IMG/VR virus record: IMGVR_UViG_3300009702_000068
Coordinates: 1-27,448 of that record
Length of the DNA stretch: 27,448 nt
Strand: one strand, 5' to 3'
From: a virus
Shown: piece by piece, positions 3,183 to 19,780 of the stretch
Layout: every line of letters begins with the position of its first letter
Position numbering within the stretch: the first letter of the stretch is position 1
The notes under the pieces: generated by a model
The model's database searches: none
The model's input: only the letters and a program-made list of their open reading frames with translations
What the model was told of the DNA's origin: nothing
Position numbers and translations under genes: made by a program

Positions 3183-3212
3183 AAAAAAAGACACTTGTAA
3201 TTACAGTGTCTT
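3183..3212 (-). terminator. Leader terminator before the 3178 operon
   Basis: Read on the minus strand, stem AAGACACT / AGTGTCTT (8 bp, 9-base loop) is followed by seven T. It lies between the promoter at 3252-3280 and the first ATG at 3178. Any transcript from that promoter must therefore pass it. It could also stop read-through from the upstream tail operon. Confidence 0.8.
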
Positions 3213-3226
3213 CTTTATCACGTATG

Positions 3227-3244
3227 CCAGCCCCATATGTCTGG
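3227..3244 (-). promoter_or_regulatory. Conserved 5'-end hairpin of late leader
   Basis: On the minus strand CCAG and CTGG pair around the 10-base loop ACATATGGGG. The hairpin begins at about the predicted transcription start, some 7 bases after the -10 box. Copies with related loops occur at 8817-8833, 10063-10081 and 19728-19744. Confidence 0.6.
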
Positions 3245-3251
3245 TAGTTAT

Positions 3252-3280
3252 ATTATATTGTTTTTGTGCTATTACTTCAA
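3252..3280 (-). promoter_or_regulatory. Late promoter TTGAAG-17-TATAAT
   Basis: On the minus strand the -35 box TTGAAG (3275-3280) is separated by exactly 17 bp from a perfect -10 box TATAAT (3252-3257). The -35 box lies one base beyond the stop codon of the preceding gene. It should drive the operon starting at 3178. Confidence 0.8.
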
Positions 3281-3281
3281 G

Positions 3282-3698
3282 CTAGAAACCGAGATTGTTA
3301 CGAAATAATTTGTAATGATATGTTGCAGTTCCATATAGAGTCCCTCCTGAGAAGTTTTCGAGATACAGTAAAAATATTAGGTTTCCTGTCCCACATGAGG
3401 CTGATGCGTGGAAAGTGATTGCACCTGCTCCCACATCATAATAACTATTCTGATAATATCTATTTGGATCCTGATTGCTAGTAATCTCAACTTGGTTGTA
3501 TGGGCAGTACCCCAATCCATGCACAAGAGTTCCATAAACAGCACTCGTACTTCCAAATGGGACAGATCCATTAAGAGTAACACTTCCCTCTGCATAATAC
3601 TTCAATGTGTTGTAATCTGAAGAATATGTGAGATCATCTGGATTTGTTGCTGTCAAAACGTCATTGCTTCCTTTTGAAACTGCGATTACTTGAGTCAT
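3282..3698 (-). CDS. Receptor-binding-like protein, paralog 3 of 3
   Basis: This 138-residue protein is the last of three tandem homologous genes. All share an N-terminal V-S-K-x-x-x-D-V-L-like segment, an N-T-x-K motif near residue 32, and a conserved H-x-L-G-Y-x-P motif (here HGLGYCP at about residues 60-66). The C-terminal halves diverge and are rich in Tyr, Asn and Gly, as expected of beta-sandwich tail-fibre or spike modules. H-L-G-Y-x-P segments are common in phage tail-fibre-type proteins. Its start overlaps the stop of the previous paralog by one base, so the three are translationally coupled. The late promoter at 3252-3280 lies immediately after its stop. The receptor-binding role is inferred. 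Confidence 0.65.
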   Translation of the reverse strand: MTQVIAVSKGSNDVLTATNPDDLTYSSDYNTLKYYAEGSVTLNGSVPFGSTSAVYGTLVHGLGYCPYNQVEITSNQDPNRYYQNSYYDVGAGAITFHASASCGTGNLIFLLYLENFSGGTLYGTATYHYKLFRNNLGF

Positions 3699-4087
3699 TA
3701 TGATAATGGAACTTCATAACATATATAACTAACTTTAATATTTTTTGATGAGCTATAATCATTTTTTATTTCAAAATACAAGCTAGTTCCGTCTGATGCA
3801 GCTGATAAGAATGCATAATCTCTAGGGAAAGGGAGCGTACCCCCAACACCAATTACGCGACTATCTCCAGTTGCAAGACTAAAGGCGTCTACCAGCGGGG
3901 AATACCCCAGCCCATGTGACAACGTGATAGTGCCCGTGCTTGTACCCGGCACAGTACCAAGAATTGTTCCACTTGACACTATTTTAAACGTATTTAGTTC
4001 TGTATCGATGATTGTATTGTTCGGGACTGTTCCCGCAGTACCTAGGACATCAATTCCTTGTTTTGAAACTCTAACAGAAGTATTCAT
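3698..4087 (-). CDS. Receptor-binding-like protein, paralog 2 of 3
   Basis: This 129-residue middle member of the tandem trio starts MNTSVRVSKQGIDVL. It carries the shared N-T-F-K motif at about residues 32-35 and the motif HGLGYSP at about 58-64. The region between them is a Gly/Thr/Pro-rich stretch that reads like repeated beta strands. The second half shares little with its neighbours. Overlaps of 4 bases upstream and 1 base downstream show a compact translationally coupled set. The conserved first half and variable second half suggest a common virion-anchoring part and a divergent tip, which is inference. Confidence 0.65.
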   Translation of the reverse strand: MNTSVRVSKQGIDVLGTAGTVPNNTIIDTELNTFKIVSSGTILGTVPGTSTGTITLSHGLGYSPLVDAFSLATGDSRVIGVGGTLPFPRDYAFLSAASDGTSLYFEIKNDYSSSKNIKVSYICYEVPLS

Positions 4088-4437
4088 ACTCCTTGATCGT
4101 GAAATAAGTAATAATGAAAAGTTCTTGTCGATCCACTAGTATTATGAAATATAATATTTCCTGTTCCTAGATTCCAAAAAGCGCCATATGTTGAGTTTAG
4201 ATCACTCCCCCCAATACTTACATATTTCCCCCCAAAATTTACAGATACCTTAGCAAGAGGAATATATCCTAAACTATGATTGATGGTTCCTTGAGAAGAT
4301 GAGTTTACATTTATTGTCCCTCTTGTTTTCTCCTTAATCAATACATTATCGCTATCAGCATATACTGAATAATGATCAATCGTCCCATCGGTTAGTGCAT
4401 CATACCCTGGCAAGGATACTCTCATTGTCATTCCCAT
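4084..4437 (-). CDS. Receptor-binding-like protein, paralog 1 of 3
   Basis: This 117-residue protein starts MGMTMRVSLPGYDALTDGT. Aligning it with the other two paralogs supports the first ATG, because the R-V-S segment then falls at the same distance from the start. The shared motif here is HSLGYIP at about residues 56-62, preceded by a Gly-Thr-rich segment. The C-terminal half (Gly, Asn, Tyr, Phe) is unlike its neighbours. It follows the 94-residue gene by three bases. I see no enzymatic motif and call it a probable tail-fibre or spike module by context. Confidence 0.65.
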   Translation of the reverse strand: MGMTMRVSLPGYDALTDGTIDHYSVYADSDNVLIKEKTRGTINVNSSSQGTINHSLGYIPLAKVSVNFGGKYVSIGGSDLNSTYGAFWNLGTGNIIFHNTSGSTRTFHYYLFHDQGV

Positions 4438-4440
4438 ATG

Positions 4441-4725
4441 TTATACGCTCCCAATTACTATTCTGTTTGTAGTTCCATCATGTACTAATATTCTATTATT
4501 TGCACCATCAAGTAAAACATATCCACTTGTTGATGATCCCAAGTTTAGTCCTACAATGACCGTTCCTGATGCTATTTTGTCTGCTGACATATACGCAATC
4601 TTATTATTCCCCACACTATTTCTCTCATACTGACCATCAAAGTCATAAGAGGATACTACCTTTTGATTATTGACAATTGGTGAGTTTTTCGGTTGCAGGA
4701 ATATATCAAGCCCTAGATTATTCAT
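4441..4725 (-). CDS. Small beta-rich tail protein
   Basis: This 94-residue protein has a polar N-terminal third followed by a run of short strand-turn units (about residues 50-94: KIASGTVIVGLNLG, GYVLLDG, NNRILVHDG, NRIVIGSV). The repeating pattern of alternating hydrophobic residues followed by D-G or N-N turns resembles the triple-stranded beta domains of phage fibres. The start overlaps the preceding beta-propeller-like gene by four bases (ATGA), and the three paralogous receptor-binding-like genes follow. A fibre or adaptor linking the tail hub to those proteins is plausible but unproven. Confidence 0.6.
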   Translation of the reverse strand: MNNLGLDIFLQPKNSPIVNNQKVVSSYDFDGQYERNSVGNNKIAYMSADKIASGTVIVGLNLGSSTSGYVLLDGANNRILVHDGTTNRIVIGSV

Positions 4726-6134
4726 GATTTTACATCCGTCTTAGCATCAAGGGCGCAGCCATAATAGGTATACTTTGCGTTCTTGCTGGACTCTGTAATG
4801 CGAACATATAATAGATTTGACTTGCTACCTTGTGGAAAGCGATACTCACATACTCCACGCGTACAATCTCCAAGATCACGCCACGGAAGAGTATCAACGT
4901 CTTGATATGTGTTTACGCATGCAACCTGCACTCTTGTCTGGCATCCTGGATTGAATATCCCTCTATACCAGTTCCATTTTTTTTCATATTCTGGTGATCC
5001 ATAGTGATAGACAAATATCATCTCAGATGCTATTACCGATCCATTGTCAGTTGTTGCGGTTCCTGCCATCTTGTAGCATTGACCACTTGAGTCACCGAAT
5101 ATGAGCTGTCTTTCTTTCCCTGTGTCGGTATACGAGTGAAATGATGTAGGATTATTTGCAAATGAATAATTCAAAAACTCATTTTTTTGATAGTCATATT
5201 TTATGATTGCATTACTGATCGTTCGTCCGACAAAATCATCTGTTATGCTTCCAACTGCTAGAAGATAATCATACTTATGACACTCTCCTTGAAGAGTTGA
5301 GAAAATAGTTCCCACAATCCCTGATCCTGACGAATTGTATATTTGTCTTTGAATGGGATTAGATATTAGCTGAGGCTTTCCACCTCCCTGACCGAAAATG
5401 CCATACTGATTTGTGTAAAACCAATAATCCTCAGTGCGTGCGACAGAGTATGGGCTGGATGGCCCGTAATTTGTCGACATATCAATACGTGCGTACCCGT
5501 CCCATTTATTCATGATCCCACTATTTTTTGTGGCGATGAGCTTGTCTTGCGCTTTAAATATTTTTGACAATTTTCCTGCTCCTGGTATTTGTAGAGACGA
5601 TGAGTCTGACGTGCCACTTGTATTCCAATTTGTCGCGTCGTTAGATGTTGAGTAAAAAAGAGTTGAAGAAGTTCCCGCTGCATATATTCTTCCTTGATAT
5701 TCTTCAAAGAATGTGGCTACTGGTGCGAGTGTTCCATCGGTAAATGCAGTCCCATTTGTCGTGTATCTCGTTGACCCCACGCCATCTCCTATGATCATTG
5801 TGTTGTTTAGAATTGCATCTCCTACATAAGCAGACGCACCTACTGTCCCATTTCCGGTAACAGTCCACGCGCCAGTCCCCTGAAAGCTTGAGTATACAAG
5901 TGTTCCTGATTTTCTATACAGATACTGCGTTGTTCCATCATTCTTATCAAATGAGAAGAGGGAGTTTACCTGTGCATTATCAGGCGTTCCTAAAAAAGAC
6001 ACATATCCGCTTCTTTTTGTCTTGGCCCCATATGGAGATGAGTCCATGTTGACGCTATGGATAAGCGCTCCGTCATTCAATAGCGGATTTATGTATGTAT
6101 TTATCCCTCCTAAATTGAAATATTGTTGTGCCAT
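4722..6134 (-). CDS. Beta-propeller-like tail protein, candidate nozzle or hub
   Basis: This 470-residue protein starts MAQQYFNLGGINTYINP. It is almost entirely strand-rich with recurrent blade-like units: an aromatic residue, a turn and a short strand (for example YQGRIYAAGTSSTLFYS at about 148-164, and DKLIATKNSGIMNKWDG at about 196-212). Short-tailed phages build the nozzle of the tail from such propellers. The gene follows the adaptor-like gene and precedes the fibre-like genes, the usual adaptor-nozzle-fibre order. Four cysteines cluster near residues 395-425. The nozzle assignment rests on composition and gene order, not a recognised signature. Confidence 0.6.
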   Translation of the reverse strand: MAQQYFNLGGINTYINPLLNDGALIHSVNMDSSPYGAKTKRSGYVSFLGTPDNAQVNSLFSFDKNDGTTQYLYRKSGTLVYSSFQGTGAWTVTGNGTVGASAYVGDAILNNTMIIGDGVGSTRYTTNGTAFTDGTLAPVATFFEEYQGRIYAAGTSSTLFYSTSNDATNWNTSGTSDSSSLQIPGAGKLSKIFKAQDKLIATKNSGIMNKWDGYARIDMSTNYGPSSPYSVARTEDYWFYTNQYGIFGQGGGKPQLISNPIQRQIYNSSGSGIVGTIFSTLQGECHKYDYLLAVGSITDDFVGRTISNAIIKYDYQKNEFLNYSFANNPTSFHSYTDTGKERQLIFGDSSGQCYKMAGTATTDNGSVIASEMIFVYHYGSPEYEKKWNWYRGIFNPGCQTRVQVACVNTYQDVDTLPWRDLGDCTRGVCEYRFPQGSKSNLLYVRITESSKNAKYTYYGCALDAKTDVKS

Positions 6135-7273
6135 TATATATATTCTATTCCCGAGTCAAAACCCGATACAGCTTCATCCATATCTATCATCTGTATTCCT
6201 GTTCTGTCTCGCGGAGTAATTTCATTAATAAAGTCTGATTTAATTTTTTGAGCTTTTCCGTAGTGTCTGTCTGATGTATCGGCTTTTTCATCATTGTCAT
6301 ATGCACAGTACAATCCATACTCAATAAATCCTCTGGTATATCTTCTCATTGGATATGGAAGCTCATCACTCTCATCATCGAGTATTGCTTGTCCCTTTGA
6401 ATATATAATTCGTGCAGTACCTCCAATGCTTGTTGGTAAGAATTGAATGAGGTTGTCTCCTTGCCATGAATGATATGGATCTGCACTAGAAAATGAGGTA
6501 TTGTCATCAAACCGTGTCATATCAGTTTTTGTAGATCGAGTGTATTTTGTGCCGTCACTTGTTACTTCAATTTTTTCTGCATACATGAAGTCTGATGCGG
6601 TTATCGTTCCAAGACCTGTTGTTCCTATAGCAATAGATGTCGTGCCGAGAAGATACCCGTTATTGACTTTTACTGCTGCTGTATTCATTTCTTCGAGCCA
6701 CTCATTGACCCAGTCATCAATAACGCTATCGGACTTGATATATCCTGTATCGAATAATCTTTCCTTTATCCTGCTTCTCAACTTTGCTTTGCTATAGAAT
6801 GTTGGCCCACCTGGCACAAACCAGTCGGAGTCTGACGATTCATTACCCGTTGCCGAGTTTCGAAATCGTGTCATGTATGCATATGATGCTGCACCTGACG
6901 TATCATTGTATTCGGTGTATTGTGAGTCGGGAGTGATTGTAACCGTTGCTATTGCTGTTGCAGTACCTGCTGTCCCCGTTGTTGACCTTTTGAATATTAT
7001 TTGATTGTAATTTACGTCATAAATAGGAGTATCTATTGCGTGATCAAATCTGAGAGCTGCTGCTGTGGTGAGCGCTGTTCCTGATGGAGTGGTGGAGGAG
7101 AGAAGTACAATCTCGGCCTGCTCTTCCCCTGTTTTACCGAGTTGAATTGCGTGCTGTGCTGTATAGTTGTTAATGTTTTTAACAGGCACAGTTGTTCCTC
7201 CCGATGATATATTGACGGATGAGTAGCTGTATTGCGCTTGTTGATCAAGATTATTTTGTACTGATATTATCAT
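6134..7273 (-). CDS. Tail adaptor / head-tail connector-like protein
   Basis: The 379 residues fall into two parts. The N-terminal part (about 1-155) is strand-rich and Ser/Thr-rich and looks like a fibronectin- or Ig-like module. The C-terminal part (about 160-379) is helical and contains a segment typical of phage adaptor proteins: LRSRIKERLFDTGYIKSDSV followed by D-D-W-V-N-E-W-L-E-E-M-N. A later acidic and aromatic stretch continues it. Such helical adaptors dock on the portal and carry the nozzle. Its start overlaps the upstream gene by four bases and its stop overlaps the nozzle-like gene by one. The beta-module fusion at the N-terminus is notable. Family membership is inferred from the helical pattern. 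Confidence 0.6.
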   Translation of the reverse strand: MIISVQNNLDQQAQYSYSSVNISSGGTTVPVKNINNYTAQHAIQLGKTGEEQAEIVLLSSTTPSGTALTTAAALRFDHAIDTPIYDVNYNQIIFKRSTTGTAGTATAIATVTITPDSQYTEYNDTSGAASYAYMTRFRNSATGNESSDSDWFVPGGPTFYSKAKLRSRIKERLFDTGYIKSDSVIDDWVNEWLEEMNTAAVKVNNGYLLGTTSIAIGTTGLGTITASDFMYAEKIEVTSDGTKYTRSTKTDMTRFDDNTSFSSADPYHSWQGDNLIQFLPTSIGGTARIIYSKGQAILDDESDELPYPMRRYTRGFIEYGLYCAYDNDEKADTSDRHYGKAQKIKSDFINEITPRDRTGIQMIDMDEAVSGFDSGIEYI

Positions 7274-7971
7274 GAAAATGTTGGTCGAATGTTTTTAACT
7301 ATTTGAGGAGTTATTACTTTATATTGTTCTCCATATACCCCTCCATACGAAAGATCCGCATCATTGTATGTGCTTCCTGATTCGTTGTAGGTAAATCCTT
7401 GATTATATATCTGCGAATTGGTTGCATTTACATGCACCTTCATTTTTGGTATTACGGATATATTAAGGTTTTCGATAGCTTCTATGCCAGCTGATGGGAT
7501 ACTTGAAAGAAGCTCGATTACATCAGGAGAAAGATATACATTCCGAATAGCTTCAATAGTGGGGGATGGATTTGACAGCGTAACGGTAAGTGGATTTGCC
7601 TCAATGAGCTTTGGTATTGATACTTGTGACGAGGGAAGAGATATAACAAGGGATAATGCATTAGGAGATAGAGATACATTGCTCGTTGTCGAAATGTCTG
7701 CTATAGGTTGTGTAAGGAGAAGATTAAGCACATTTGCTTGAAATGATACTGCGTACACAACGTCTGAATCAGGAAGACTGAGTGTCATATCAACTGACTC
7801 AGCAAGTATTGTTATATTACATATCCCTAGATAGGGATACCCTACTTCATTATATGATAAACCTACTTCATTGTAGGCTGTGCAATTATCTTCTATAGAC
7901 TTGAATCCTTGATAGGAAGAATACTGCTCGTTGTATGTAAATCCTGACTGATTATAGGAGATATTAGCCAT
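7270..7971 (-). CDS. Repeat-containing virion protein with Tyr-rich ends
   Basis: This 233-residue protein is built from two repeat types. Short Tyr-rich units of the form YNxxGxxYNExxxxYxG occur twice near the N-terminus (about residues 6-22 and 33-49) and once near the C-terminus (about 189-212). Between them lie repeats of about 27-30 residues with the pattern V-x-L-S-P-x-x-L-x-L-x-L-S-x-P-S-x-x-I (about 60-175). Proteins with such Leu/Ser/Pro strand repeats are common among phage and giant-gene structural proteins, but no function is assigned to them. The gene sits between a widespread small virion protein and the adaptor-like gene. No catalytic motif is seen. Confidence 0.55.
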   Translation of the reverse strand: MANISYNQSGFTYNEQYSSYQGFKSIEDNCTAYNEVGLSYNEVGYPYLGICNITILAESVDMTLSLPDSDVVYAVSFQANVLNLLLTQPIADISTTSNVSLSPNALSLVISLPSSQVSIPKLIEANPLTVTLSNPSPTIEAIRNVYLSPDVIELLSSIPSAGIEAIENLNISVIPKMKVHVNATNSQIYNQGFTYNESGSTYNDADLSYGGVYGEQYKVITPQIVKNIRPTFS

Positions 7972-7975
7972 TACG

Positions 7976-8398
7976 TCATCCTAAATTGATAATTCCCTCC
8001 GTATTCCATTGAATGGTGAAATTACCACTTGAAGATGTTTGGTCAGATCCAAAATCTAAATAGGCGATAAGAGGGCTTGTTGATCCCACGCCAGTATCTT
8101 GATACAGGACTGCACCTCGTGCGGTAAGACTTGATGTTCCCCATGTCACATCGTCTGCATCATACACTGCCTCATCATCTGTATTGTCTTGAGTCACCGT
8201 TCCGTTTGCAAGTGTTGCTCCACCTGTTGTGTATCCAGTTCCTGACACTTCATTTGTTACATCGTCTTTAAAATCATGAGTGTCTTGATCTGGTGTGTAT
8301 GTCGACGTGACAAGCATTATTTTTACTGAGCTTGTGCCAAAGTTTATGCCCGCGTTCAACAATTGTTTTTTGAAACTGTTGTATATTACATCAGCCAT
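7976..8398 (-). CDS. Conserved phage structural protein (MADVIYNSFK type)
   Basis: This 140-residue protein begins MADVIYNSFKKQLLNAG and contains the segments VKIMLVTSTYTPDQDTHDF, DVTNEVSGTGYTTGGATL, DADDVTW, ARGAVLYQDTG and PLIAYLDFGSD. I recognise this pattern from many tailed-phage genomes, where it is annotated only as a phage structural or hypothetical protein. Length and domain are complete. It is all-beta, probably a virion decoration or tail component. It lies 55 bases after the first tail-operon gene and four bases before the repeat protein. No close Shine-Dalgarno site precedes the ATG. Confidence 0.8.
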   Translation of the reverse strand: MADVIYNSFKKQLLNAGINFGTSSVKIMLVTSTYTPDQDTHDFKDDVTNEVSGTGYTTGGATLANGTVTQDNTDDEAVYDADDVTWGTSSLTARGAVLYQDTGVGSTSPLIAYLDFGSDQTSSSGNFTIQWNTEGIINLG

Positions 8399-8453
8399 TT
8401 TTATTCTTTGAAATTGATATTTTTATTGGTTTAGTTTTTATTTTTACGTTCAT

Positions 8454-8762
8454 TTATCTTCCTCCTGATGCTATACAGCCGAGATCAGCAGTATTTGTAA
8501 TTGTTAAGCCATTTTTAGTTCTAACGTCAATCACGTATGAAGCTTGTGGATCATCTGCAGTATTTGTTCCGAGAACGATTGTTCCGACTACCGTTCCTGA
8601 TGTGCCGGCACTATCATAGATTATGAATTGACCAGATGCTTTTCGATGTGTAACGGTAATTGAGTGAAGGTAGTACGACTCTTTAGATATCGTAGTCGTA
8701 CCTGCAACGGTTCCTATTCTTGAATAGTCAAATACTGTTGGAGTGTTTATAAGTAATGCCAT
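8454..8762 (-). CDS. Small beta-rich structural protein, first gene of tail operon
   Basis: The preferred start is the ATG at 8762 (MALLINTPTVFDYSRIGTV), giving 102 residues. A longer reading to 8810 would translate the terminator hairpin and is rejected. The protein is strand-rich, with a recurring G-T-V or G-T-I pattern (about residues 17-24 and 56-64) and a C-terminal GCIASGGR. It is the first gene of the tail operon behind the leader at 8768-8868; its ATG lies five bases after the U-tract. It resembles small head or tail decoration proteins, but no family is identified. Confidence 0.6.
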   Translation of the reverse strand: MALLINTPTVFDYSRIGTVAGTTTISKESYYLHSITVTHRKASGQFIIYDSAGTSGTVVGTIVLGTNTADDPQASYVIDVRTKNGLTITNTADLGCIASGGR

Positions 8763-8767
8763 AGGGT

Positions 8768-8801
8768 AAAAAAAAGACACTGATAATAGTTTCAGTGCCT
8801 T
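8768..8801 (-). terminator. Leader terminator before the tail operon
   Basis: On the minus strand a 10-bp stem AAGGCACTGA / TCAGTGTCTT with one G-U pair and an 8-base loop is followed by eight T. It stands between the promoter at 8840-8868 and the ATG at 8762. The stem differs in sequence from the copies at 3183 and 19678 while keeping its pairing. Confidence 0.8.
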
Positions 8802-8816
8802 CTTGAACACAATATG

Positions 8817-8833
8817 GCAGTCCCATATACTGC
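8817..8833 (-). promoter_or_regulatory. Conserved 5'-end hairpin of late leader
   Basis: Minus-strand GCAG and CTGC pair around the loop TATATGGGA. Compared with the copy at 3227-3244 the outer pair has changed from C-G to G-C, a compensatory change that supports RNA structure. Confidence 0.6.
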
Positions 8834-8839
8834 AGTTAC

Positions 8840-8868
8840 ATTATATATTTTTTATACTTCTTCTTCAA
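8840..8868 (-). promoter_or_regulatory. Late promoter TTGAAG-17-TATAAT
   Basis: The minus-strand -35 box TTGAAG (8863-8868) and the perfect -10 box TATAAT (8840-8845) are 17 bp apart, identical in layout to the copy at 3252-3280. The whole -35 box lies inside the last codons of the glycosyltransferase gene that ends at 8852. Confidence 0.8.
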
Positions 8869-10009
8869 GGCGTGAAAGGAAGGGAATCCATTTCTCTTTG
8901 AACACAACGTCGGTATCATAGTTCTTGACTACATGCTCTCTTGCAGCTTTTCCCATTTTTACGCGATCTGATTTATATATTCTCATCATACAGTCATATA
9001 GTGACTTTACGTCAGGTGTCGCGACATACGATCCGATCTGATCATATCTTTTGTATCCAATTTCACAAATTTCTCCAGTTATATGGTTTTTTACCAGTTC
9101 AGGCATTGCAGTAAAGTTATTGACCACCACCGGCACTCCGCATGATTGCGCCTCAATAATAGGAACTCCGAATCCCTCATTTGTGGAGGGGCAGAGGAGC
9201 ATGTCAAACGTGTTGTATACATTCGACATCTGTTCTTTTCCATATTTAAAGTTCATGAGGTATTCATTTGGAAATATTACCTTGTTTTTTATACCAATAA
9301 ACTCAGCAAATTGTTTGATTGGGAAACCTCCGGGAAAATCGGGGAATGTATGAATGTAGAGCATTGCATTTGGTACTTTTTCAAGAAACATCTTAAAAGC
9401 CTCCATTGCCTCCTGAAATGACTTGCGAGGAGGATTGTCTTTGTTTGCCGAAACCATTCCACAAAGGAATACATCCTCTGGAAGACCTGCCTCAACTTTT
9501 CTTCTTTTCTTTTCTTGTGGAGCGTAAGCTTTAGTATCTACCGTATGGGGGATATATGTACTATGTAGACCATTGCGCTTTAGTTCTTCATGTCCAAACT
9601 TTGAGTATGTTACGATTCGATATGCCATTTTCAATCGATCAATGATCTGTTTTGGTACAGGTTCATGGTCAATAGGTACAATAGGTATCCATTTGTCAAC
9701 TTTCTTCAAATCATTTGGATGAAGTATCCATATGTCTTGAAGCGTGAATACTATATCTGCCTTGAAATCCTTAGCATGATGCACTATCGCATCAGACCCA
9801 TATACGTGATTGATTTTTGGATAATATACGACGTCATTAATATTAAGTATCCCACCTTCAAGACCGTAGAATGCTGATACTGCGAGTTGGTAGCCCTTTC
9901 CTCTAATGCGTGGTACAAGATCATTCATCTGTTGACCGTATCCTGAGATTGACCAGGGGGCATTGCTGTTTATAAATAAACGAAGAGTTTTTTCTTTCTT
10001 TTTAGACAT
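8852..10009 (-). CDS. GT4-type (GT-B fold) glycosyltransferase
   Basis: This 385-residue retaining glycosyltransferase probably transfers a sugar from a nucleotide-sugar donor to a surface or virion glycan in the cytoplasm. The C-terminal donor domain shows the family pattern: ANKDNPPRK at about 188-196 (loop after the first donor-domain strand), then NEGFGVPIIEAQSCGVPVV at about 277-295, containing the E-x7-E motif (E278, E286). The N-terminal acceptor domain starts LRLFINSNAPWSISGYGQQ. The ATG at 10009 is preferred over an upstream TTG at 10057 because it begins the recognisable domain. It lies inside a long AU-rich hairpin and has its own leader with a conserved 5' hairpin. It ends the second cargo operon after a GT8-like gene. 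Confidence 0.85.
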   Translation of the reverse strand: MSKKKEKTLRLFINSNAPWSISGYGQQMNDLVPRIRGKGYQLAVSAFYGLEGGILNINDVVYYPKINHVYGSDAIVHHAKDFKADIVFTLQDIWILHPNDLKKVDKWIPIVPIDHEPVPKQIIDRLKMAYRIVTYSKFGHEELKRNGLHSTYIPHTVDTKAYAPQEKKRRKVEAGLPEDVFLCGMVSANKDNPPRKSFQEAMEAFKMFLEKVPNAMLYIHTFPDFPGGFPIKQFAEFIGIKNKVIFPNEYLMNFKYGKEQMSNVYNTFDMLLCPSTNEGFGVPIIEAQSCGVPVVVNNFTAMPELVKNHITGEICEIGYKRYDQIGSYVATPDVKSLYDCMMRIYKSDRVKMGKAAREHVVKNYDTDVVFKEKWIPFLSRLEEEV

Positions 10010-10042
10010 ACAAATATAATTGAACTTATATATGTATGCCCT
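10007..10042 (-). promoter_or_regulatory. AU-rich hairpin containing the glycosyltransferase start codon
   Basis: On the minus strand a 13-bp helix with one mismatch pairs CATACATATATAA with TTATATTTGTATG around the loop GTTCAA. The last three bases of the 3' arm are the ATG at 10009. Folding would hide the start codon, so translation could be structure-controlled or temperature-sensitive. Confidence 0.55.
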
Positions 10043-10062
10043 TCTTAATTTCGGCAAACGTG

Positions 10063-10081
10063 GTCAGCCCTATTGTCTGAC
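10063..10081 (-). promoter_or_regulatory. Conserved 5'-end hairpin upstream of the GT4 gene
   Basis: GTCAG and CTGAC pair around the loop ACAATAGGG on the minus strand, closely matching the loop ACAATATAG at 19728-19744. A -10-like TACAAT (10084-10089) stands just upstream, with a poor -35 (TAGTGT) at 17 bp, so promoter strength here is doubtful. Confidence 0.5.
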
Positions 10082-10092
10082 TAATTGTATTG

Positions 10093-10878
10093 TTATTTCT
10101 TATCCGACACTAAATAATCCAGTCTTTTTGTCACTTCATCTGAAAATCTAGTCTTGTAATTCATTTTCTCAGCACCTTCTCCTCCAGCCCAATGAATGAC
10201 TCTTAATTGCCACTCTCTTGAAAATGCGCTCTTACTTTCCGTATCAGGTGGGATTATTATATTATCACCCTTCATCTCAGCACGAAGCCACTCTCCTTTG
10301 CTTATAAGTCCATGCCATGAATAGTAGTTTGCAATACCATCTCCATGATCAAAACACCTGACATTATAATTGCCATAGTAACAAAGGATGTTAAGCAAGT
10401 CCTGCTCTCTCATCTGCAACCTATCAAACTGGGGGGAAAAGCAGACCACAGCCCAGTGATGAACAAACTTCTCACTTCGCATGGCGACTAGTCCGCAATT
10501 GAAGTATTCAACCGGAGATATTCCCCATCCTTGAACGAGTCCGTACGTCTGTGGATCGATCCTATTCCAATTGAGGACAGTGCCAACGTCATAATCTTTC
10601 GTTTTTAGTATATAGTCAAGATCCCCTGTAATAATTTGATCAGCATCGAGCTTCAAGACTAGATCATATTCTTTTATGAGTTTTTCTCCGATCACGGGCG
10701 TTGCACGATAAAAGAAGTTAGGGTCATTTGCAAGCTCAGCTTTCAGATCTTCACCTGTTATGATCTTGAGTGGCAATTCTTTTGCTGTATGAAATTTACG
10801 AAGAGAATTTTCAAGCATCTTTGCATACTTCATGTTCTTTTCGTCTGCGATTGTGAATGCGATTACTGGTTTTTTCAT
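10093..10878 (-). CDS. GT8-like (GT-A fold) glycosyltransferase
   Basis: This 261-residue protein shows GT-A features. The N-terminal strand is PVIAFTIADEKN. A DxD-type motif, LKLDADQII (Asp78-Ala-Asp80), would bind the divalent metal and nucleotide-sugar diphosphate. YFNCGLVAMRS (about 125-135) and REQDLLNIL (about 157-165) are typical of family 8 enzymes, and VIHWAGG near residue 232 matches their C-terminal His-Trp-x-Gly metal-binding loop. It overlaps the upstream 64-residue gene by four bases and precedes the GT4 gene. It probably adds a hexose to a surface glycan or glycosylates phage proteins. Donor and acceptor cannot be told from sequence. Confidence 0.8.
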   Translation of the reverse strand: MKKPVIAFTIADEKNMKYAKMLENSLRKFHTAKELPLKIITGEDLKAELANDPNFFYRATPVIGEKLIKEYDLVLKLDADQIITGDLDYILKTKDYDVGTVLNWNRIDPQTYGLVQGWGISPVEYFNCGLVAMRSEKFVHHWAVVCFSPQFDRLQMREQDLLNILCYYGNYNVRCFDHGDGIANYYSWHGLISKGEWLRAEMKGDNIIIPPDTESKSAFSREWQLRVIHWAGGEGAEKMNYKTRFSDEVTKRLDYLVSDKK

Positions 10879-11069
10879 TTCTTCTTTTCTTCAACTTTTT
10901 CAAACTCAATGATATTTGCTATGTTTGCAAAGGGAATGAAGAAGCGAATTTGCTGCTTTGGGTAATTTGTCCATACTCCAGATGTTTCAAATGTTACATT
11001 CACTTTTTCTTCAACTGTATCTCTTTGTCCTTCAACTGGGTATTTGAACACGATTTTGTACTGTTTCAT
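10875..11069 (-). CDS. Small hypothetical protein in glycosylation operon
   Basis: This 64-residue protein starts MKQYKIVFKYPVEGQRDTVE. It has alternating hydrophobic residues suggesting a small beta sheet (about 3-9, 22-28 and 41-56) and a charged Lys/Glu tail. No signal peptide, membrane helix or cysteine is present. It is wedged by four-base overlaps between a 35-residue membrane protein and the GT8-like gene, so it is co-translated with the glycosyltransferases. I do not recognise it. Confidence 0.6.
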   Translation of the reverse strand: MKQYKIVFKYPVEGQRDTVEEKVNVTFETSGVWTNYPKQQIRFFIPFANIANIIEFEKVEEKKK

Positions 11070-11173
11070 GATATGTATTTAATAAGTGCTAATAATGAAT
11101 CAAAAATAATATATGCTAATAATGCTCCACAAGCAAAAAATCCAAGCAGTATAAGATACTCTAATATTTTCAT
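11066..11173 (-). CDS. 35-residue single-pass membrane protein
   Basis: Hand translation from the ATG at 11173 gives MKILEYLILLGFFACGALLA and a further hydrophobic stretch ending IKYIS. One transmembrane helix spans about residues 5-32 with a single Cys at 15. The gene starts in an ATGA overlap with the methyltransferase stop and ends in an overlap with the next ATG. That perfect tiling is the main reason to believe so short a gene. It may anchor the glycosylation enzymes or act on its own; nothing in the sequence decides. Confidence 0.6.
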   Translation of the reverse strand: MKILEYLILLGFFACGALLAYIIFDSLLALIKYIS

Positions 11174-11820
11174 TTTCTTTTTGCGACAAATGTACTAGCT
11201 TCTGTAGCATTCATCCATTTAAACTCATAACCATAGTCGATAAAGCATGTTGCAAACTGTTGAGGATTTACACCACTCCATGTATGAAACTCGCCTAATA
11301 TTAAATCGATTTTATCCTTCACTTTCACAAATCCATCGGACACAATCAGATCATACTCAGATCCTTCAATGTCCATCTTCAAAATGTCGATGTGTTTTAT
11401 TTTCAGATCCTTCATCATTTGATCAAGAGTCTTCGTCTCAACCTCTTCATATTCGTTCTTGTTGTTTACTTCTCCGCGAAGTGAATACATGGTGGTATTG
11501 TCGTTATGATAAAACTTTGTTTTTCCGTTTTTTGAGGATACTGCATAGGGATAAATCTCGGCATTCATATCGTTTTGTGCGTGCATAGTCTTGAGTGTTT
11601 TGATGTGGTCTTTTGAAGGCTCAACTGCAATGAGTCGTTTTGCGTAGTCTTTGAAGTAGAAGTTTGTTATGCCGATATTGCTCCCAAGATCAACTATAGT
11701 AAGATCTTTTCTTCCACGAGTATATTGATCGTATATCCTATCGAGGTATACCTCTTTTAAAATGTGAGGTAGATATGAGTTTTTGAAGTCTTGAAAATAA
11801 AATGCTTGTAGTTTTGACAC
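11170..11820 (-). CDS. FkbM-family SAM-dependent methyltransferase
   Basis: This 216-residue enzyme carries the AdoMet-binding motif IVDLGSNIGITNFYF (about 42-56), an acidic residue after strand 2 (VEPS, 66-69) and the FkbM signature ILKMDIEGSEYDLI (146-159). FkbM proteins methylate hydroxyl groups on sugars or polyketides. Followed by two glycosyltransferases, this one probably caps or modifies a glycan. The start is GTG at 11820; no ATG in frame lies near the domain start. There is no Shine-Dalgarno site, but the start is preceded by the sequence ATGAAATAA, which is nearly repeated in the leader at 21971-22010. It is the first gene of its operon, behind an extended -10 promoter at 11848-11856. 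Confidence 0.85.
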   Translation of the reverse strand: MSKLQAFYFQDFKNSYLPHILKEVYLDRIYDQYTRGRKDLTIVDLGSNIGITNFYFKDYAKRLIAVEPSKDHIKTLKTMHAQNDMNAEIYPYAVSSKNGKTKFYHNDNTTMYSLRGEVNNKNEYEEVETKTLDQMMKDLKIKHIDILKMDIEGSEYDLIVSDGFVKVKDKIDLILGEFHTWSGVNPQQFATCFIDYGYEFKWMNATEASTFVAKRK

Positions 11821-11886: not shown

Positions 11887-11907
11887 TGACTAAAAATAAC
11901 AATACTT

Positions 11908-12570: not shown

Positions 12571-12587
12571 ATGTAATTTTTGAATGT

Positions 12588-12941
12588 TTATAACAAAATA
12601 GGTCTGCGTAGCTTTGTGTTGCCATTTAGCCTATTGACCGTATCTGCGACACGGATTTTGGATAAAATCTTTTCGCCTATCATTCGCTTGTAGAGGCTAT
12701 CTCCGAGATAGTCCTTTATTTTCTTAGTGCCGCGGTTAAGGCGGTAGCAAGCATATGCTGATACCGCCTCAATGCGTTCACCTAGAGCTTCCTCAATGGC
12801 CAGTCCCGATGTTTTATGAAATGTATCTGCTTCCTTTATCGTTTCTTCAATTACTGCCTTATTTCGTGCAGGATTGAATGACGAGTCTGGATTTGCAACG
12901 ATATATTTATAATCTCTTGGATCTAGTTCATTGGTTTCCAT
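12588..12941 (-). CDS. Candidate head-tail connector / head completion protein
   Basis: This 117-residue, mostly helical protein (ETNELDPRDYKYIVANPD at the start, then long amphipathic helices at about 25-50 and 55-105) lies three bases after the major capsid gene. Small helical proteins directly downstream of the coat gene usually complete the portal ring (gp6- or gp15-like). The length fits that group. I do not see a diagnostic motif, so the assignment comes from position, size and predicted helices. Confidence 0.55.
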   Translation of the reverse strand: METNELDPRDYKYIVANPDSSFNPARNKAVIEETIKEADTFHKTSGLAIEEALGERIEAVSAYACYRLNRGTKKIKDYLGDSLYKRMIGEKILSKIRVADTVNRLNGNTKLRRPILL

Positions 12942-12944
12942 AGG

Positions 12945-14210: not shown

Positions 14211-14227
14211 GAAATTTTATTTAATTG

Positions 14228-14956: not shown

Positions 14957-15018
14957 AATCGTATTAGTTACCAGTCGTGCTTATATACACGCTGTGTAAT
15001 TGATAATGTATACCCAAC

Positions 15019-15063
15019 AAAAAAAGGCCTGGATACCCAATTTGTGTTGGATGTCCAAGCCTT
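15019..15063 (-). terminator. Leader terminator before the head operon
   Basis: On the minus strand AAGGCTTGGA pairs with TCCAGGCCTT (10 bp, one U-G pair), extended inward by CCAA/TTGG, and is followed by seven T. It lies between the promoter at 15107-15135 and the scaffold ATG at 14956. The 3' flank repeats TTGGGTAT, so alternative pairings with the CCAA arm exist. Confidence 0.8.
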
Positions 15064-15082
15064 CTATTGTTCGCTTGATCTG

Positions 15083-15099
15083 GCGGTCATTTTTACCGC
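15083..15099 (-). promoter_or_regulatory. 5'-end hairpin of the head-operon leader
   Basis: Minus-strand GCGGT and ACCGC pair around the 7-base loop AAAAATG at the predicted start of the transcript. It occupies the same position as the hairpins at 3227, 8817 and 19728 but has a different loop, so position rather than sequence is conserved here. Confidence 0.55.
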
Positions 15100-15106
15100 T
15101 ACTTAT

Positions 15107-15135
15107 ATTATCTATTTTTTATCTATTTTTGTCAA
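15107..15135 (-). promoter_or_regulatory. Late promoter TTGACA-17-GATAAT
   Basis: The minus-strand -35 box TTGACA (15130-15135) is perfect and stands 17 bp from GATAAT (15107-15112), five of six bases matching consensus. The -35 box overlaps the portal gene stop codon. It should drive scaffold and capsid genes. Confidence 0.85.
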
Positions 15136-17216
15136 ACCGTCCCCATTGACTGAGCTGCTGACCCTGCATCTATTGCAATTCCTGCTTGACCCGCCGCCTG
15201 CACTTTTCCTTCTGGAGGGAGATCCTTGTATGATATTGACACTTTATTCTTCTCTTGCGGCTTCTCTTTATTAACCATGCCAAGATCACGCATTGCCTCT
15301 GCGACTCCAAGCTTTGTCGTTTCGACCATCTTCTGATCTGCCTCTTGACCGGCTGCTCCTAGATCTTTCATTGTCTCTGCCACGGCCAATTTTATCTTAT
15401 CGATTACCTGTTCATCGAGTTCCTGAGTTGTAAGCCCCTCATCAAGTAGCTCCATAAATTCCTGAGTATTTCCGTATCCGAATGTTTCTAGGAATTTCTT
15501 TATTACCATATGAAGTGCCTCTTGTGGGATCTTTCCAAGCTCTGCAAATTGAGCCATGAATGTGATGATCTGTTGCATCGCTTCGCGCTTTCCTTGCATC
15601 GTCAGACCGAGTCCAGGCTCTATTTCAATACGAACCTTTGCTGACTTATCGATAACAACAACATCATGAGGTAATTTCTTTTCGACCTGTTGTGATAGTT
15701 CATATCCTCTTTGTCCGATGATATCAAAGTAGTCAGGCTCACCGTCATTCATGTACTCAACCTCAACGGGTTCAAGGAAGTCTTTATCAGCACGCTCAAG
15801 CATGAGATTTGCTACATCTCTTATAGTCTTTTTCAGCATCTTTGTTGCTATTTTTAGGTTTGCGTATTCCGTTGCCTTCAATGATTCAATTGCTACTCCT
15901 GATTTGACACCAGATGGAAGCTGATTAAGTGCGGATGTTGATGATCCTTGCTCTTCAATATATTTATCAAGGAGTTCAACCATGTTGAATGGTGTATTCC
16001 CGACGCTTGCATTTGCCATTTGCCGAAGTGGAATAGTTTCGTATTCGATCATCTGTCCCCCTGGAATATTTGAAACCTTATAGTTTTCATTTTTCTGTTT
16101 CTGATACACACCGACAACCATTGTATTTATCCACTTCTCAAGTCTTGTTACAATCACATCAAGAGACTTGTTTTGAGGGATGAAGTTTTCGATGAATGGT
16201 TTTTGATAAAGGTATCCTGGCTCGAATCGAAACTCTGCAAATGGATAGTTATCGTAGTTTATATATTCATCAAGAAGTGTAACGCCACCTGCCGAAAACA
16301 CATGACGCATAATGTCATCTCCCTTTGATTTTCCTTCCATCGCTCCAGTATCAGACCCCTTTTTGACAGCGTCTTTCCAGTTTGCTTCTGTCAGTTTTTC
16401 TTCGAGGAAGGTTTCTTTCTCCATGATAGTACCCTCCTTTTCCGTATTAGTCTTTGATCCATAGCGTGATACCATATATGCCTGTTTTACCTCAGATGTC
16501 GCATATCTATTGTCTGGTTGTAGTCTTTCGGTATTGGCGTTCTTATAAGCTTCATCAGCCATAATGTTATGAATGACGCGACTTCGTGTCTTTGTAATAA
16601 ATGGACAGTGCTTTAGCTCTTCCTTATCACCATAAAGAATGATATCGAATGCATCATATACCTCTGTATGTATCTCCTGTTTATCGGTATCGCTCCATAC
16701 TTGCAGATATGATATTGAGTTTTTAGCAGCCTTTAGCATCATGTTTATGAGCTTGATGTCAAAGTCTTGATTATCTTCCCACTCTGTGGTAAGCCATGTT
16801 CCTTGCTTTCTTGCAATGATTTTAGATTTTTCGACTTCCTGCATATATACTTGCATGTCTACTTGACCCTGTGCATCTGTGTAGTCTGCAGTTGTTACAC
16901 GCGCAGGATATACAACGGGGTAGGGTTCTGCTGCAAAGAGCAGGTTTGATACTCCTCGTATCTGACGACTTGCGCGGGGGATTGCACGTTCTACATAGTT
17001 TCCAGTTCCTCCTACATGATCAATGGTTTTCCCAGTTTTTTTAGATATAACTTTAAAGTGGAAACCATCATCGAAATAGTTATTCTCAAACCATCTTCGT
17101 TCATGCGATCTTCTCTGTCCTATTGCTTTTCCAATAAGATCATCGAGCGTCGCACCGATTGTTGCAGATTTGACGAAGCTTAGTTCTCTTGTTAGCTTAA
17201 AATCTTTCAGGTTCAT
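15132..17216 (-). CDS. Portal protein
   Basis: At 694 residues this is close in size to the large portals of P22-like short-tailed phages. It is rich in helices and acidic-aromatic clusters. Typical features are an N-terminal segment with ERRWFENNYFDDGFHF, a middle wing with WEDNQDFDIKLINMMLKAA, a helix-rich stem region near LDVIVTRLEKWIN, and a long C-terminal Gln/Glu/Lys helix (about 560-665) that may form a barrel. It lies between terminase and scaffold genes. Twelve copies would form the DNA channel at one capsid vertex. The start overlaps the upstream membrane-protein gene by four bases. Confidence 0.85.
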   Translation of the reverse strand: MNLKDFKLTRELSFVKSATIGATLDDLIGKAIGQRRSHERRWFENNYFDDGFHFKVISKKTGKTIDHVGGTGNYVERAIPRASRQIRGVSNLLFAAEPYPVVYPARVTTADYTDAQGQVDMQVYMQEVEKSKIIARKQGTWLTTEWEDNQDFDIKLINMMLKAAKNSISYLQVWSDTDKQEIHTEVYDAFDIILYGDKEELKHCPFITKTRSRVIHNIMADEAYKNANTERLQPDNRYATSEVKQAYMVSRYGSKTNTEKEGTIMEKETFLEEKLTEANWKDAVKKGSDTGAMEGKSKGDDIMRHVFSAGGVTLLDEYINYDNYPFAEFRFEPGYLYQKPFIENFIPQNKSLDVIVTRLEKWINTMVVGVYQKQKNENYKVSNIPGGQMIEYETIPLRQMANASVGNTPFNMVELLDKYIEEQGSSTSALNQLPSGVKSGVAIESLKATEYANLKIATKMLKKTIRDVANLMLERADKDFLEPVEVEYMNDGEPDYFDIIGQRGYELSQQVEKKLPHDVVVIDKSAKVRIEIEPGLGLTMQGKREAMQQIITFMAQFAELGKIPQEALHMVIKKFLETFGYGNTQEFMELLDEGLTTQELDEQVIDKIKLAVAETMKDLGAAGQEADQKMVETTKLGVAEAMRDLGMVNKEKPQEKNKVSISYKDLPPEGKVQAAGQAGIAIDAGSAAQSMGTV

Positions 17217-17458
17217 GAATTTTCTTTAATAAATTTAGTAAATGTCTCATCATCTGCCTGATCGAGTGGTATTTCGTCAGACTCTTTAAATGGGATATCT
17301 TTTTTATTTTCAGTCGTCTTCATTGAGAGATACTCATTGGTATTTTTAGCAATGAGCGCTTGCATATAATGATCTTGTTGCTTATGCGATTCTCTTGCAA
17401 AAAGGTATCGCTCTACAATGAGTCCGATAATGATTACTCCAAGTATTATTTCTATCAT
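17213..17458 (-). CDS. Small N-terminally anchored membrane protein
   Basis: This 81-residue protein begins with a hydrophobic helix (IEIILGVIIIGLIVERYLF, about residues 2-20) followed by a charged cytoplasmic or periplasmic tail rich in Asp, Glu and Lys. It overlaps both neighbours by four bases (ATGA), lying between the nucleotidyltransferase-like gene and the portal gene. Small type II-like membrane proteins in packaging operons have no settled role. No lipobox or lysis motif is present. Confidence 0.6.
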   Translation of the reverse strand: MIEIILGVIIIGLIVERYLFARESHKQQDHYMQALIAKNTNEYLSMKTTENKKDIPFKESDEIPLDQADDETFTKFIKENS

Positions 17459-17880
17459 AGGTATATTTTTTTGAATGTTTTATAAGGGTTGGGAATGTAA
17501 AAATACTCCATTGCATAAGGTAGGGGATCGGTACTCTCTATGCAGGAATGATTCTTTTTGAATATTTCAATTGTTATGGAAACGCCCAAGTGATCGTATT
17601 CAATCTTATTTTTCGACGTATCAATTGCATCTGCGACAAGGCTCACAATGTCCATACCGCTTGACATCCAGTCGGTGTAGCGTACTCCAAGATATATCCC
17701 ATCTCCTGATAGGTCTCCGCCTTTCATTATCGATTCTGCGGTGTCTTTTATAACAAAGTAGGGGATAGCTCCACGAGATAGCACGTCATCTATGTAGTAC
17801 AGTGCGTCCAGTAATTGTTGATGACTAAACGATTTCGACTTGATCCCAGTCGTTTTGGTCTCTGTTCCTTTTGATTTCAT
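17455..17880 (-). CDS. Nucleotidyltransferase-fold-like protein
   Basis: This 141-residue protein reads like a small nucleotidyltransferase-fold protein. The helix LLDALYYIDDVLSRGAIPYF (about 24-43) is followed by VIKDTAESIMKGG, then DLSGDGIYLGVRY (about 56-68), resembling the G-x-x-(x)-D-x-D strand-turn of that fold, and later YDHLGVSITIEIF (about 96-108) and YFYIPNPYKTFKKIYL at the end. The second catalytic acid is not clear, so it may be inactive. The first ATG overlaps the terminase gene by 56 bases, unusually long here; an internal start cannot be ruled out. The activity is inferred from motif resemblance. Confidence 0.5.
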   Translation of the reverse strand: MKSKGTETKTTGIKSKSFSHQQLLDALYYIDDVLSRGAIPYFVIKDTAESIMKGGDLSGDGIYLGVRYTDWMSSGMDIVSLVADAIDTSKNKIEYDHLGVSITIEIFKKNHSCIESTDPLPYAMEYFYIPNPYKTFKKIYL

Positions 17881-19312
17881 TCAAGTGTTTTGCAACAACT
17901 GATAATTTTTCATCTTGTCTATCTGATGCTATTGGTCGTGACATAAAATAATATCTATCACGATCATATGCATGATCCTCAGCGTCTGTATCTACATCCT
18001 CAACTCTTGTCTTGCTGTAGACAAGAGCTGGTATTGTTCGTATCGTGTCGTAACACGTACTAAATACTCTGTACTCTGGCACTCCGTTTTTTATTGCGAG
18101 CGCTTCTTGATATCGATTGAGCCCATTCATACGGTCATTGTCTGCCCGAATCATTCTCAAGCCTTCATCTATCATGATTTCAGCGTATGACTCTCCTTCT
18201 GGTTTTTTGCTATCCTCTCCGAGCAAAATCTTATTCCACATGGATGGATCTGCGACCATATACTCATAGTCCTCGCCCGCCTTCTTTGTCATGTCTATAA
18301 CAAGTCTTGCGAGTCTTCTTGCAGTCAGTGGCTGATGATACCGTGACTCAAACTCAATCTTATTCATATAAAGTTCTCTATATAGATAAGACTGACCATC
18401 ATAATTTTGTGCGTACCAACCGATAGCAAAAGGCTTATTCGATCCCCAGTCCATTGCGAGATATCGCCTCCATTCCGGTGGTATTGGAAATGGCTTTACA
18501 ACATGGATATTTCTGTTCCATTCTGCAAATACTTGCCCCTCAAACACATCCCACGATCCATCTCTCCAAGCCTTACGCTTTGCCTCTGGCATTGAGTCAA
18601 GCTGTTTCATGTACTCTGCTGTTGTGTAGGGGTTATCTTCTGGAAGTGATCTTATGAAAAAAAATCTATCTTGTTCCGGGTCAGGACTTCGCGGATCAGG
18701 CTCTATCCAGTATTTACGTACCCATGCGTGCCCGATTTGTCCAGGATTGGTGACTCCTACAAACTTCGGGTCATCAATCATTACCTTCTCTTCTCCGATC
18801 TTCTTTTCGTTTTTATATATACCTCTCGTACCTGTGTATCTGAGTCTGAATCTCAAGTCCTCAAATGTCTCAACTGGGTTTTTGGTCAGCTCTTCAACAA
18901 GAATTGCCGCAAACTCAGCCGATGCATATTTGGATGGATCATCAAGATTGCGGAGAAGTATACGGAAGCCTCCATACGAATCATTCGCCCTGAACATATA
19001 TCCCTCATCACGGTCTTCAATAAGTTTCCCAAGCCAAGAGGGAAACTCATGCTTGATTCGTGCAATCTGTCTATCTTTCAAGGTAGGATAATCTTCACTA
19101 AACAGACCAATTGGTACATTTTTGATGTTGTACTTTGTGCTGTAATATATCCCAAGACCAAGTGCGATCCATCTCAAAAAATACGACTTTCCGCCATGCG
19201 CGGCTCCTCCGTAGAGTAGATACTTACACTGATTGTCAAAGAGCGTTTTGTACGCCTCTATTTGGCGTACGTTTTTTTCAAACCCTGCTAGCTTGTAAAA
19301 TGATTGTTTCAT
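17825..19312 (-). CDS. terL: Terminase large subunit
   Basis: This 495-residue packaging motor has both domains. In the ATPase domain the Walker A loop is YGGAAHGGKS (34-43), the Walker B strand with its catalytic Glu is AAILVEE (135-141), and the coupling motif follows near GVTNPGQIG (186-194). The RNase-H-like nuclease domain starts RYLAMDWGSN (Asp288), followed by YMVADPSMW (Asp355) and DAEDHAYDRDRYY (about 443-455), which supply the metal-binding acids. It cuts and pumps concatemeric DNA into the procapsid through the portal. It overlaps the small subunit gene by four bases. The domain order and length are typical. Confidence 0.93.
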   Translation of the reverse strand: MKQSFYKLAGFEKNVRQIEAYKTLFDNQCKYLLYGGAAHGGKSYFLRWIALGLGIYYSTKYNIKNVPIGLFSEDYPTLKDRQIARIKHEFPSWLGKLIEDRDEGYMFRANDSYGGFRILLRNLDDPSKYASAEFAAILVEELTKNPVETFEDLRFRLRYTGTRGIYKNEKKIGEEKVMIDDPKFVGVTNPGQIGHAWVRKYWIEPDPRSPDPEQDRFFFIRSLPEDNPYTTAEYMKQLDSMPEAKRKAWRDGSWDVFEGQVFAEWNRNIHVVKPFPIPPEWRRYLAMDWGSNKPFAIGWYAQNYDGQSYLYRELYMNKIEFESRYHQPLTARRLARLVIDMTKKAGEDYEYMVADPSMWNKILLGEDSKKPEGESYAEIMIDEGLRMIRADNDRMNGLNRYQEALAIKNGVPEYRVFSTCYDTIRTIPALVYSKTRVEDVDTDAEDHAYDRDRYYFMSRPIASDRQDEKLSVVAKHLNEIKRNRDQNDWDQVEIV

Positions 19313-19677
19313 TTTTTCGGCATATCAAGAACGATCTGCAATTTCTCTCCATCTCCTCCTGTATGTTCGCTTCGCACTGCAAACTCATCCTTGTATTTTC
19401 GCTCAAGCCACCATGCGGAAGCTTGCCATGATTTTTTACTGGCAAAATCAATATTTTTGATATGTCGTCTTTTATTTTTTGATTCTGCTTTTTTTAATGA
19501 CTCTATAAAGTCTTGTTTCTGTACGTCAGAAAGGGGACTAGGATGATCTTTGCTGTCGGATTTCCATTGATAAAAAGTAGATTCACCAATACCAGATAAA
19601 ATAGCGGCGTCCTTTTGGGATAGGCCCTCTGATATGTACTTGCAGATTTCTTTTACTCTTTCGCGAGAATACTTCAT
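19309..19677 (-). CDS. terS: Terminase small subunit
   Basis: This 122-residue protein has an N-terminal helix-turn-helix (about residues 19-40: LSQKDAAILSGIGESTFYQW) for recognising the packaging site. Helical oligomerisation segments and a C-terminal strand that may touch the large subunit follow. The ATG at 19677 is chosen; an upstream GTG at 19689 lies inside the terminator stem. The ATG directly follows the seven-T tract of that terminator, so the gene has no room for a normal ribosome-binding site. It is the first gene of the packaging operon, upstream of terL. Confidence 0.85.
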   Translation of the reverse strand: MKYSRERVKEICKYISEGLSQKDAAILSGIGESTFYQWKSDSKDHPSPLSDVQKQDFIESLKKAESKNKRRHIKNIDFASKKSWQASAWWLERKYKDEFAVRSEHTGGDGEKLQIVLDMPKK

Positions 19678-19709
19678 AAAAAAAGTCACCTTGATAATCT
19701 CGGTGACTT
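19678..19709 (-). terminator. Leader terminator directly abutting the terS start codon
   Basis: The minus-strand stem AAGTCACC / GGTGACTT (8 bp) is followed by seven T and then immediately by ATG of terS. It lies downstream of the promoter at 19752-19780. AGAAG sits at the 5' foot of the stem, as in the other leaders. Confidence 0.8.
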
Positions 19710-19727
19710 CTGATTCTCACGCGTATG

Positions 19728-19744
19728 CCAGCTATATTGTCTTG
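19728..19744 (-). promoter_or_regulatory. Conserved 5'-end hairpin of late leader
   Basis: Minus-strand CAAG and CTGG flank the loop ACAATATAG, followed by GGCATACG as in the copy at 3227-3244. One pair of the stem is mismatched here, so this copy is the weakest. Confidence 0.5.
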
Positions 19745-19751
19745 TAGTTAT

Positions 19752-19780
19752 ATTATATGATTTTATTGGTCTTTATTCAA
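19752..19780 (-). promoter_or_regulatory. Late promoter TTGAAT-17-TATAAT
   Basis: The minus-strand -35 box TTGAAT (19775-19780) and the perfect -10 box TATAAT (19752-19757) are 17 bp apart. The -35 box abuts the stop codon of the transketolase fragment at 19781. It should drive the packaging operon. Confidence 0.8.

Follow-up and report, generated by a model that had tools for sequence, protein, structure and literature searches.

Why should a phage place a terminator between a promoter and the first gene of an operon, and why repeatedly? The question is raised by the viral contig IMGVR_UViG_3300009702_000068 (IMG/VR), given as a 27.4-kb contig and analysed here over its whole length of 27,448 nucleotides (the window). 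The window is from a tailed phage whose terminase, portal and capsid genes all lie on the minus strand, and the original prediction had placed on that strand four leaders in which a promoter is followed by a terminator hairpin. All four were found where they had been placed. From sequence comparison, we consider it likely that they are copies of one RNA leader, in which a factor-driven terminator/antiterminator switch gates several late operons.

The window contains four instances of a promoter scoring at least 10 of 12 that is followed by a stem of 7 bp or more and by six or more T; in 150 order-1 Markov surrogates such instances averaged 0.08 and reached at most one. Numbered by rising coordinate, sites 1-4 have near-consensus promoters, as had been claimed, with scores of 10, 10, 11 and 10 of 12 and a 17-bp spacer in each. 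The U-runs comprise 7, 8, 7 and 7 T, matching the 7-8 expected, although the stems, described beforehand as GC stems, proved to be of mixed composition and not strictly GC. The U-runs end 63, 66, 82 and 68 nt past the predicted starts, and these predicted short RNA lengths agree with the 65-80 nt first estimated.

About 100 related viral contigs were recovered through portal and capsid searches, and the sole bacterial genome that these returned, Candidatus Roizmanbacteria UBA1450, has a prophage whose portal is 77% identical, which makes the Patescibacteria (candidate phyla radiation, CPR), tiny bacteria that are mostly uncultured, the probable host group. The leader was found again in relatives, with quite different letters. 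Its parts follow in the order near-consensus promoter (spacer usually 17 bp), predicted start A, a hairpin of about 17 nt at the RNA 5' end that begins at the predicted second nucleotide (P1), an unpaired C, a linker, (T)AGAAG and the U-run terminator (P3). An unbiased scan of relatives for a promoter of at least 10/12 with [TA]AGA[AG]G, in which pairing was not required, found P1 and the terminator together at 34 of 52 sites, compared with 1.6 in shuffles and 0/30 in reversed sequence. Conserved letters are found in the predicted start A that precedes P1, the first (A) and last (G/A) positions of the P1 loop, the unpaired C that follows P1 (36/36) and a G placed six nt ahead of the motif. AGA(A/G)G itself is also conserved, and its letters belonged to the search pattern. 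The idea that TAGAAG is a Shine-Dalgarno site was rejected because the motif is retained in leaders that have a genuine site further on.

Compensatory changes support P1 and P3, bearing out the expectation that the stems vary in sequence yet keep pairing: 115 cells of the alignment changed on both sides of these stems against 35 ± 5 after shuffling, a count that leans towards structure because the rows were picked for pairing. Raw leaders could not be aligned usefully for structure with MAFFT, and RNAalifold returned no pairs, so the alignment was built from rows of equal length whose loops had been trimmed. The covariance search in related phages that had been suggested returned 70 matches among 96 loci at E up to 10; the late strand holds nearly all of them, and a promoter accompanies most, though the model contains none. 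Contigs with matches, when taken whole, usually hold 1-5 each. Rfam 15, searched with the whole window at E up to 1, returned a single chance-level snoRNA match. The element appears confined to these phages: a pattern scan of viral contigs found P1 with a terminator in four of the 66 distinct matches examined, all four in this phage family. Borrowing of the element from the host was rejected, as it did not rise above chance in 380 Patescibacteria genomes, the prophage-bearing genome excepted.

The compensatory changes in relatives also brought out a hairpin that the original prediction had overlooked. This hairpin (P2) is formed by the linker and the terminator's 5' arm, which enclose a loop of about 10 nt that ends in AGAAG. 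The 10-nt-loop geometry with at least 3 bp is present in 22 of 55 leaders, compared with 7.1 ± 2.2 (maximum 14) when arms were exchanged among leaders 2000 times. On an alignment that was not fitted to P2 (A6), double-sided changes at its three pairs number 18, compared with 6.8 ± 2.5, and covariation reaches 0.43, compared with 0.20 ± 0.04, with 0/500 shuffles as high in either measure; these figures are not strict probabilities, because the shuffles do not keep relatedness. Slid registers score lower, and the runner-up, a slide of +2 (0.30), is consistent with 12-nt loops. As P2 uses the 5' arm of P3, the two cannot coexist, and from their sequences they are a predicted, mutually exclusive terminator/antiterminator pair. 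RNAfold, applied to full leaders, predicts P3 for all four sites; in RNAs cut short ahead of the P3 3' arm it predicts P2 at sites 1-3, together with P1 at sites 1 and 3 and with a different 5' fold at site 2, and neither hairpin at site 4.

The four leaders are laid out as follows, with all promoter and hairpin coordinates on the minus strand and matches to the covariance model (R1) given in bits. At site 1 the promoter TTGAAG-17-TATAAT (3252..3280) has its predicted +1 at 3245 and is followed by P1 at 3227..3244, which reads CCAG(ACATATGGGG)CTGG and then CA. Antiterminator P2, GTG(ATAAAGAAGA)CAC at 3206..3221, overlaps the 5' arm of P3 and is identical in the nearest relative; P3 with its seven U spans 3183..3212 (U-run 3183-3189), the model matches 3185-3247 (48.4 bits), and the gene at 2225-3178 begins 4 nt after P3. 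Site 2 has the promoter TTGAAG-17-TATAAT at 8840..8868 (predicted +1 at 8833), P1 at 8817..8833 as GCAGT(ATATGGG)ACTGC, P2 at 8795..8810 as GTG(TTCAAGAAGG)CAC or, alternatively, GTGTT paired with GGCAC, and P3 with eight U at 8768..8799 (U-run 8768-8775); the match covers 8771-8836 (38.7 bits), and gene 8454-8762 begins 5 nt after P3.

Overlapping the 3' end of the portal gene, the site 3 promoter TTGACA-17-GATAAT (15107..15135, predicted +1 at 15100) precedes P1 at 15083..15099, GCGGT(AAAAATG)ACCGC, P2 at 15056..15077, CAAGC(GAACAATAGAAG)GCTTG, and P3 with seven U at 15019..15061 (U-run 15019-15025), with a model match at 15021-15102 (40.0 bits). The gene that begins 62 nt after this P3 (14228-14956) precedes the major capsid gene and is scaffold-like by position. 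The intervening 62 nt between terminator and start codon (14957-15018) match the nearest relative in all but one base, although neither a Shine-Dalgarno site nor a conserved reading frame is obvious in them. Site 4 combines the promoter TTGAAT-17-TATAAT (19752..19780, predicted +1 at 19745) with P1 at 19728..19744, CAAG(ACAATATAG)CTGG, P2 at 19703..19720, GTGA(GAATCAGAAG)TCAC, and P3 with seven U at 19678..19709 (U-run 19678-19684); the match spans 19680-19747 (28.6 bits), and the small terminase gene (phrog_4102) starts at 19677, directly after the U-run. The 5'-end hairpin described beforehand is imperfect at site 4, where P1 has one mismatch in this genome and is not predicted by RNAfold; its homologues in a related contig (G001) and in the prophage are CCAG/CTGG, and a pairing that matches P2 was scored in the prophage homologue. 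The hairpins do lie upstream of the first genes, which start right after the U-run (3178, 8762, 19677) or 62 nt on (14956). Two long open reading frame calls, 8454-8810 and 19309-19689, open with GTG inside the leaders, and the true starts of these genes are likely the ATG codons at 8762 and 19677.

In relatives the leaders keep their places. By strict automatic counts they stand before the gene preceding the capsid gene in 14 of 25 cases (about 19 by eye), before homologues of gene 2225 in 12/21 and before homologues of gene 8454 in 7/18, while the other gene clusters examined gave 0 or 1. Two layouts recur, one with the start codon 0-12 nt past the U-run and no Shine-Dalgarno site, the other with 45-75 nt and usually such a site. 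The claim that the device is repeated at every operon did not hold: the minus-strand block of sugar genes at 19781-21902 has no promoter-terminator leader, and one branch of relatives lacks the U-run at several sites.

The prophage bears on whether the terminators serve an upstream operon. Its terminase-portal genes lie on the plus strand and the genes from the pre-capsid gene through the tail on the minus strand, and the leader of the minus-strand module stands back to back with a second leader, their promoters overlapping (G004:C2 about 483193-483231). Hence neither terminator has an upstream operon to end. This arrangement refutes, for that pair, the simpler alternative offered with the original prediction, that each hairpin merely ends the operon upstream and leaks. 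Every leader in the window does follow same-strand genes and the terminators are of ordinary appearance, but the fixed spacing to their own promoter and the conservation of P1, AGAAG and P2 are not what that account predicts, and we regard it as very improbable. As a separate observation, when set against the window and the three viral relatives nearest to it, the prophage (L126+L127, G004:C2:459000-487140, on a contig that ends in or near it) has its capsid-to-tail module inverted with respect to terminase-portal.

Comparable designs exist. Leaders read by ANTAR proteins (EutV, NasR, AmiR) consist of P1, a linker and a P2 that overlaps, on its 3' side, the 5' arm of the terminator, so that two hairpins with a competing terminator and antiterminator are already known, and they occur in several copies before related operons (PMC3369936, PMC3369931). 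The phage leaders share the overlap and the multiple copies. Their loops are different: those of P1 mostly have 7-10 nt and those of P2 10-12 nt, and the A1/G4 hexaloop is found in neither hairpin of any of the 55 leaders. Some ANTAR targets are predicted to act on translation (PMC3369931), and hairpins at the start codon without a U-run in one relative (G002) parallel them. In BglG/LicT systems a protein-stabilised antiterminator hairpin is likewise exclusive with an intrinsic terminator (PMC3369936), although there a single hairpin is read via internal loops, whereas the phage leaders add a hairpin at the 5' end and carry their motif in a terminal loop. By eye, with no systematic test made, no small reading frame recurred in the leaders as it would in a ribosome-mediated attenuator.

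The original prediction had likened the leaders to the lambda Q and HK022 put systems, and late control by antitermination or attenuation is still the best-supported reading, owing to the conservation, P2 and the divergent pair, while these two models fit less well. In the lambda Q arrangement a strong, constitutive-looking late promoter is followed by a terminator to be passed (pR'-tR'), a logic that the leaders share, and a Q-like factor might be recruited through a DNA site in the promoter, the hairpins being incidental. Lambda, however, has one such site where these genomes usually have 3-5 leaders, and in 27 promoters with 17-bp spacers no DNA element of this type is conserved between -35 and -10 beyond A-richness, whereas the RNA pairing covaries; this is the least probable explanation that we weighed. 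HK022 put RNA acts through the zinc-binding domain of the RNA polymerase beta' subunit, without a factor. If P1 and a downstream structure here bound the polymerase in cis in the same manner, the terminators would be ignored. Like the phage leaders, putL serves phage antitermination from the very start of the transcript, just after the promoter, with about 70 nt and two stem-loops (PMC9378689); sequence conservation in the P1 flanks and loop ends, leaders without a U-run and the failure of the search for a protein factor agree with such a role. Yet putL and putR belong to early transcripts and have long stems, neither of which is a terminator, while the phage leaders precede late operons, have short stems and end in a built-in U-run terminator, with which P2 competes; the second hairpin is thus a terminator and not a put-type stem, and an RNA that always acted in cis would gate nothing. 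We hold this account to be unlikely, if the strongest of the rivals.

Action after transcription, by shielding the RNA 5' end or concealing the start codon, would suit a P1 that starts at predicted nucleotide 2, the many start codons 0-12 nt after a U-run without a Shine-Dalgarno site, and the second hairpin of G002, which abuts or contains the start codon. Such a role would need no U-run, though, and leaders before the pre-capsid gene mostly have 45-75 nt after them, usually with a Shine-Dalgarno site, and still retain the terminator and AGAAG, so that we give it little credence.

Several observations weigh against a factor-driven switch. P2 has only 3-6 bp and was not found in all leaders, and a test for antiterminator pairing by the longest complementary run was negative, though later position-specific tests were positive. 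At the capsid-side site the leader is missing in five relatives (diverged forms with a terminator occur in three), and in G002 and G398 several leaders lack the U-run but keep the promoter, P1 and AGAAG, so that termination is not the sole output. The search for a factor was also unproductive: no candidate was common to the early regions, of which few were in hand since most contigs have no early genes, no ANTAR domain was found in 17 phage records, many of them fragments, and no CAT domain matched in 18 records including the host genome. The Roizmanbacteria genome does encode one GAF-ANTAR protein beside glnA (L295, G004:C1 near 614000), but it is disfavoured as the reader of the leaders because they fail the A1/G4 loop rule. 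The sequence CCAC(ACAGTT)GTGG upstream of the host glnA, an A1/G4 hexaloop, may be an ANTAR target of the canonical kind, here in a CPR bacterium.

In the switch that we favour, host RNA polymerase would initiate at the strong promoter and the first 17 nt or so of the RNA would fold as P1. Linker and P2 would come next, P2 holding the first 3-6 nt of the P3 5' arm. By default the more stable P3 would displace P2 and transcription would stop after about 63-82 nt, if P3 terminates in vivo as its form suggests. A putative trans-acting factor that grips P1, the P2 loop or both would delay P3, making P2 the read-through form and letting the polymerase enter the late operon; a single factor could switch several late operons together, and the switch would then be a timing device.

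Other features of the genome stand beside these leaders. The integrase gene is at 22011-23027, and the plus strand carries ERF, replication, NinB-like and lysozyme-like genes. At 23120-23332 an early plus-strand promoter (11/12) is followed about 110 nt on by a 15-bp hairpin with a U-run. A 72-aa gene, 97% identical to that of the nearest relative, comes directly afterwards, and the arrangement may be a second attenuator, of another type. A sugar-related cassette common to many relatives (20048-21693 and 8852-11820) comprises split transketolase-like genes, an epimerase, a glycosyltransferase and an FkbM-type methyltransferase. By sequence inspection, GroEL- and GroES-like proteins (G385:12753-14357, G386:16622-16936; L145, L147) are encoded in eight and six leader-positive relatives and in 0/8 relatives used as leader-poor controls. 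A 43-52-aa protein after the capsid gene (G003:4707-4865), with an arginine-rich N-terminus, a helix-turn-helix-like end and no PHROG match, has homologues in 11 other relatives, and its family occurs in leader-positive and leader-negative relatives alike.

We found no account of late-gene control in Patescibacteria phages in the openly licensed literature, and as far as Rfam and that literature show, what is new is the RNA with its loops, its restriction to a single phage group and its repeated use as a late gate. The leader switch is probably how this virus gates late gene expression, of the head and of other late genes. About even is our confidence in the fuller proposal of a previously undescribed class of antiterminator RNA, restricted to these Patescibacteria phages, that gates several late operons, with a putative phage or host factor reading the two loop motifs and the output being a terminator or else a hairpin at the start codon. 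The 59-position model offers a means to find further copies, and the leader a bait for the factor. If the reading is true, these phages would time their late genes with a compact, repeated RNA switch that comes with natural variants for testing, and terminator/antiterminator switching, best known from bacterial metabolic operons, would serve a virus as a coordinated late gate.

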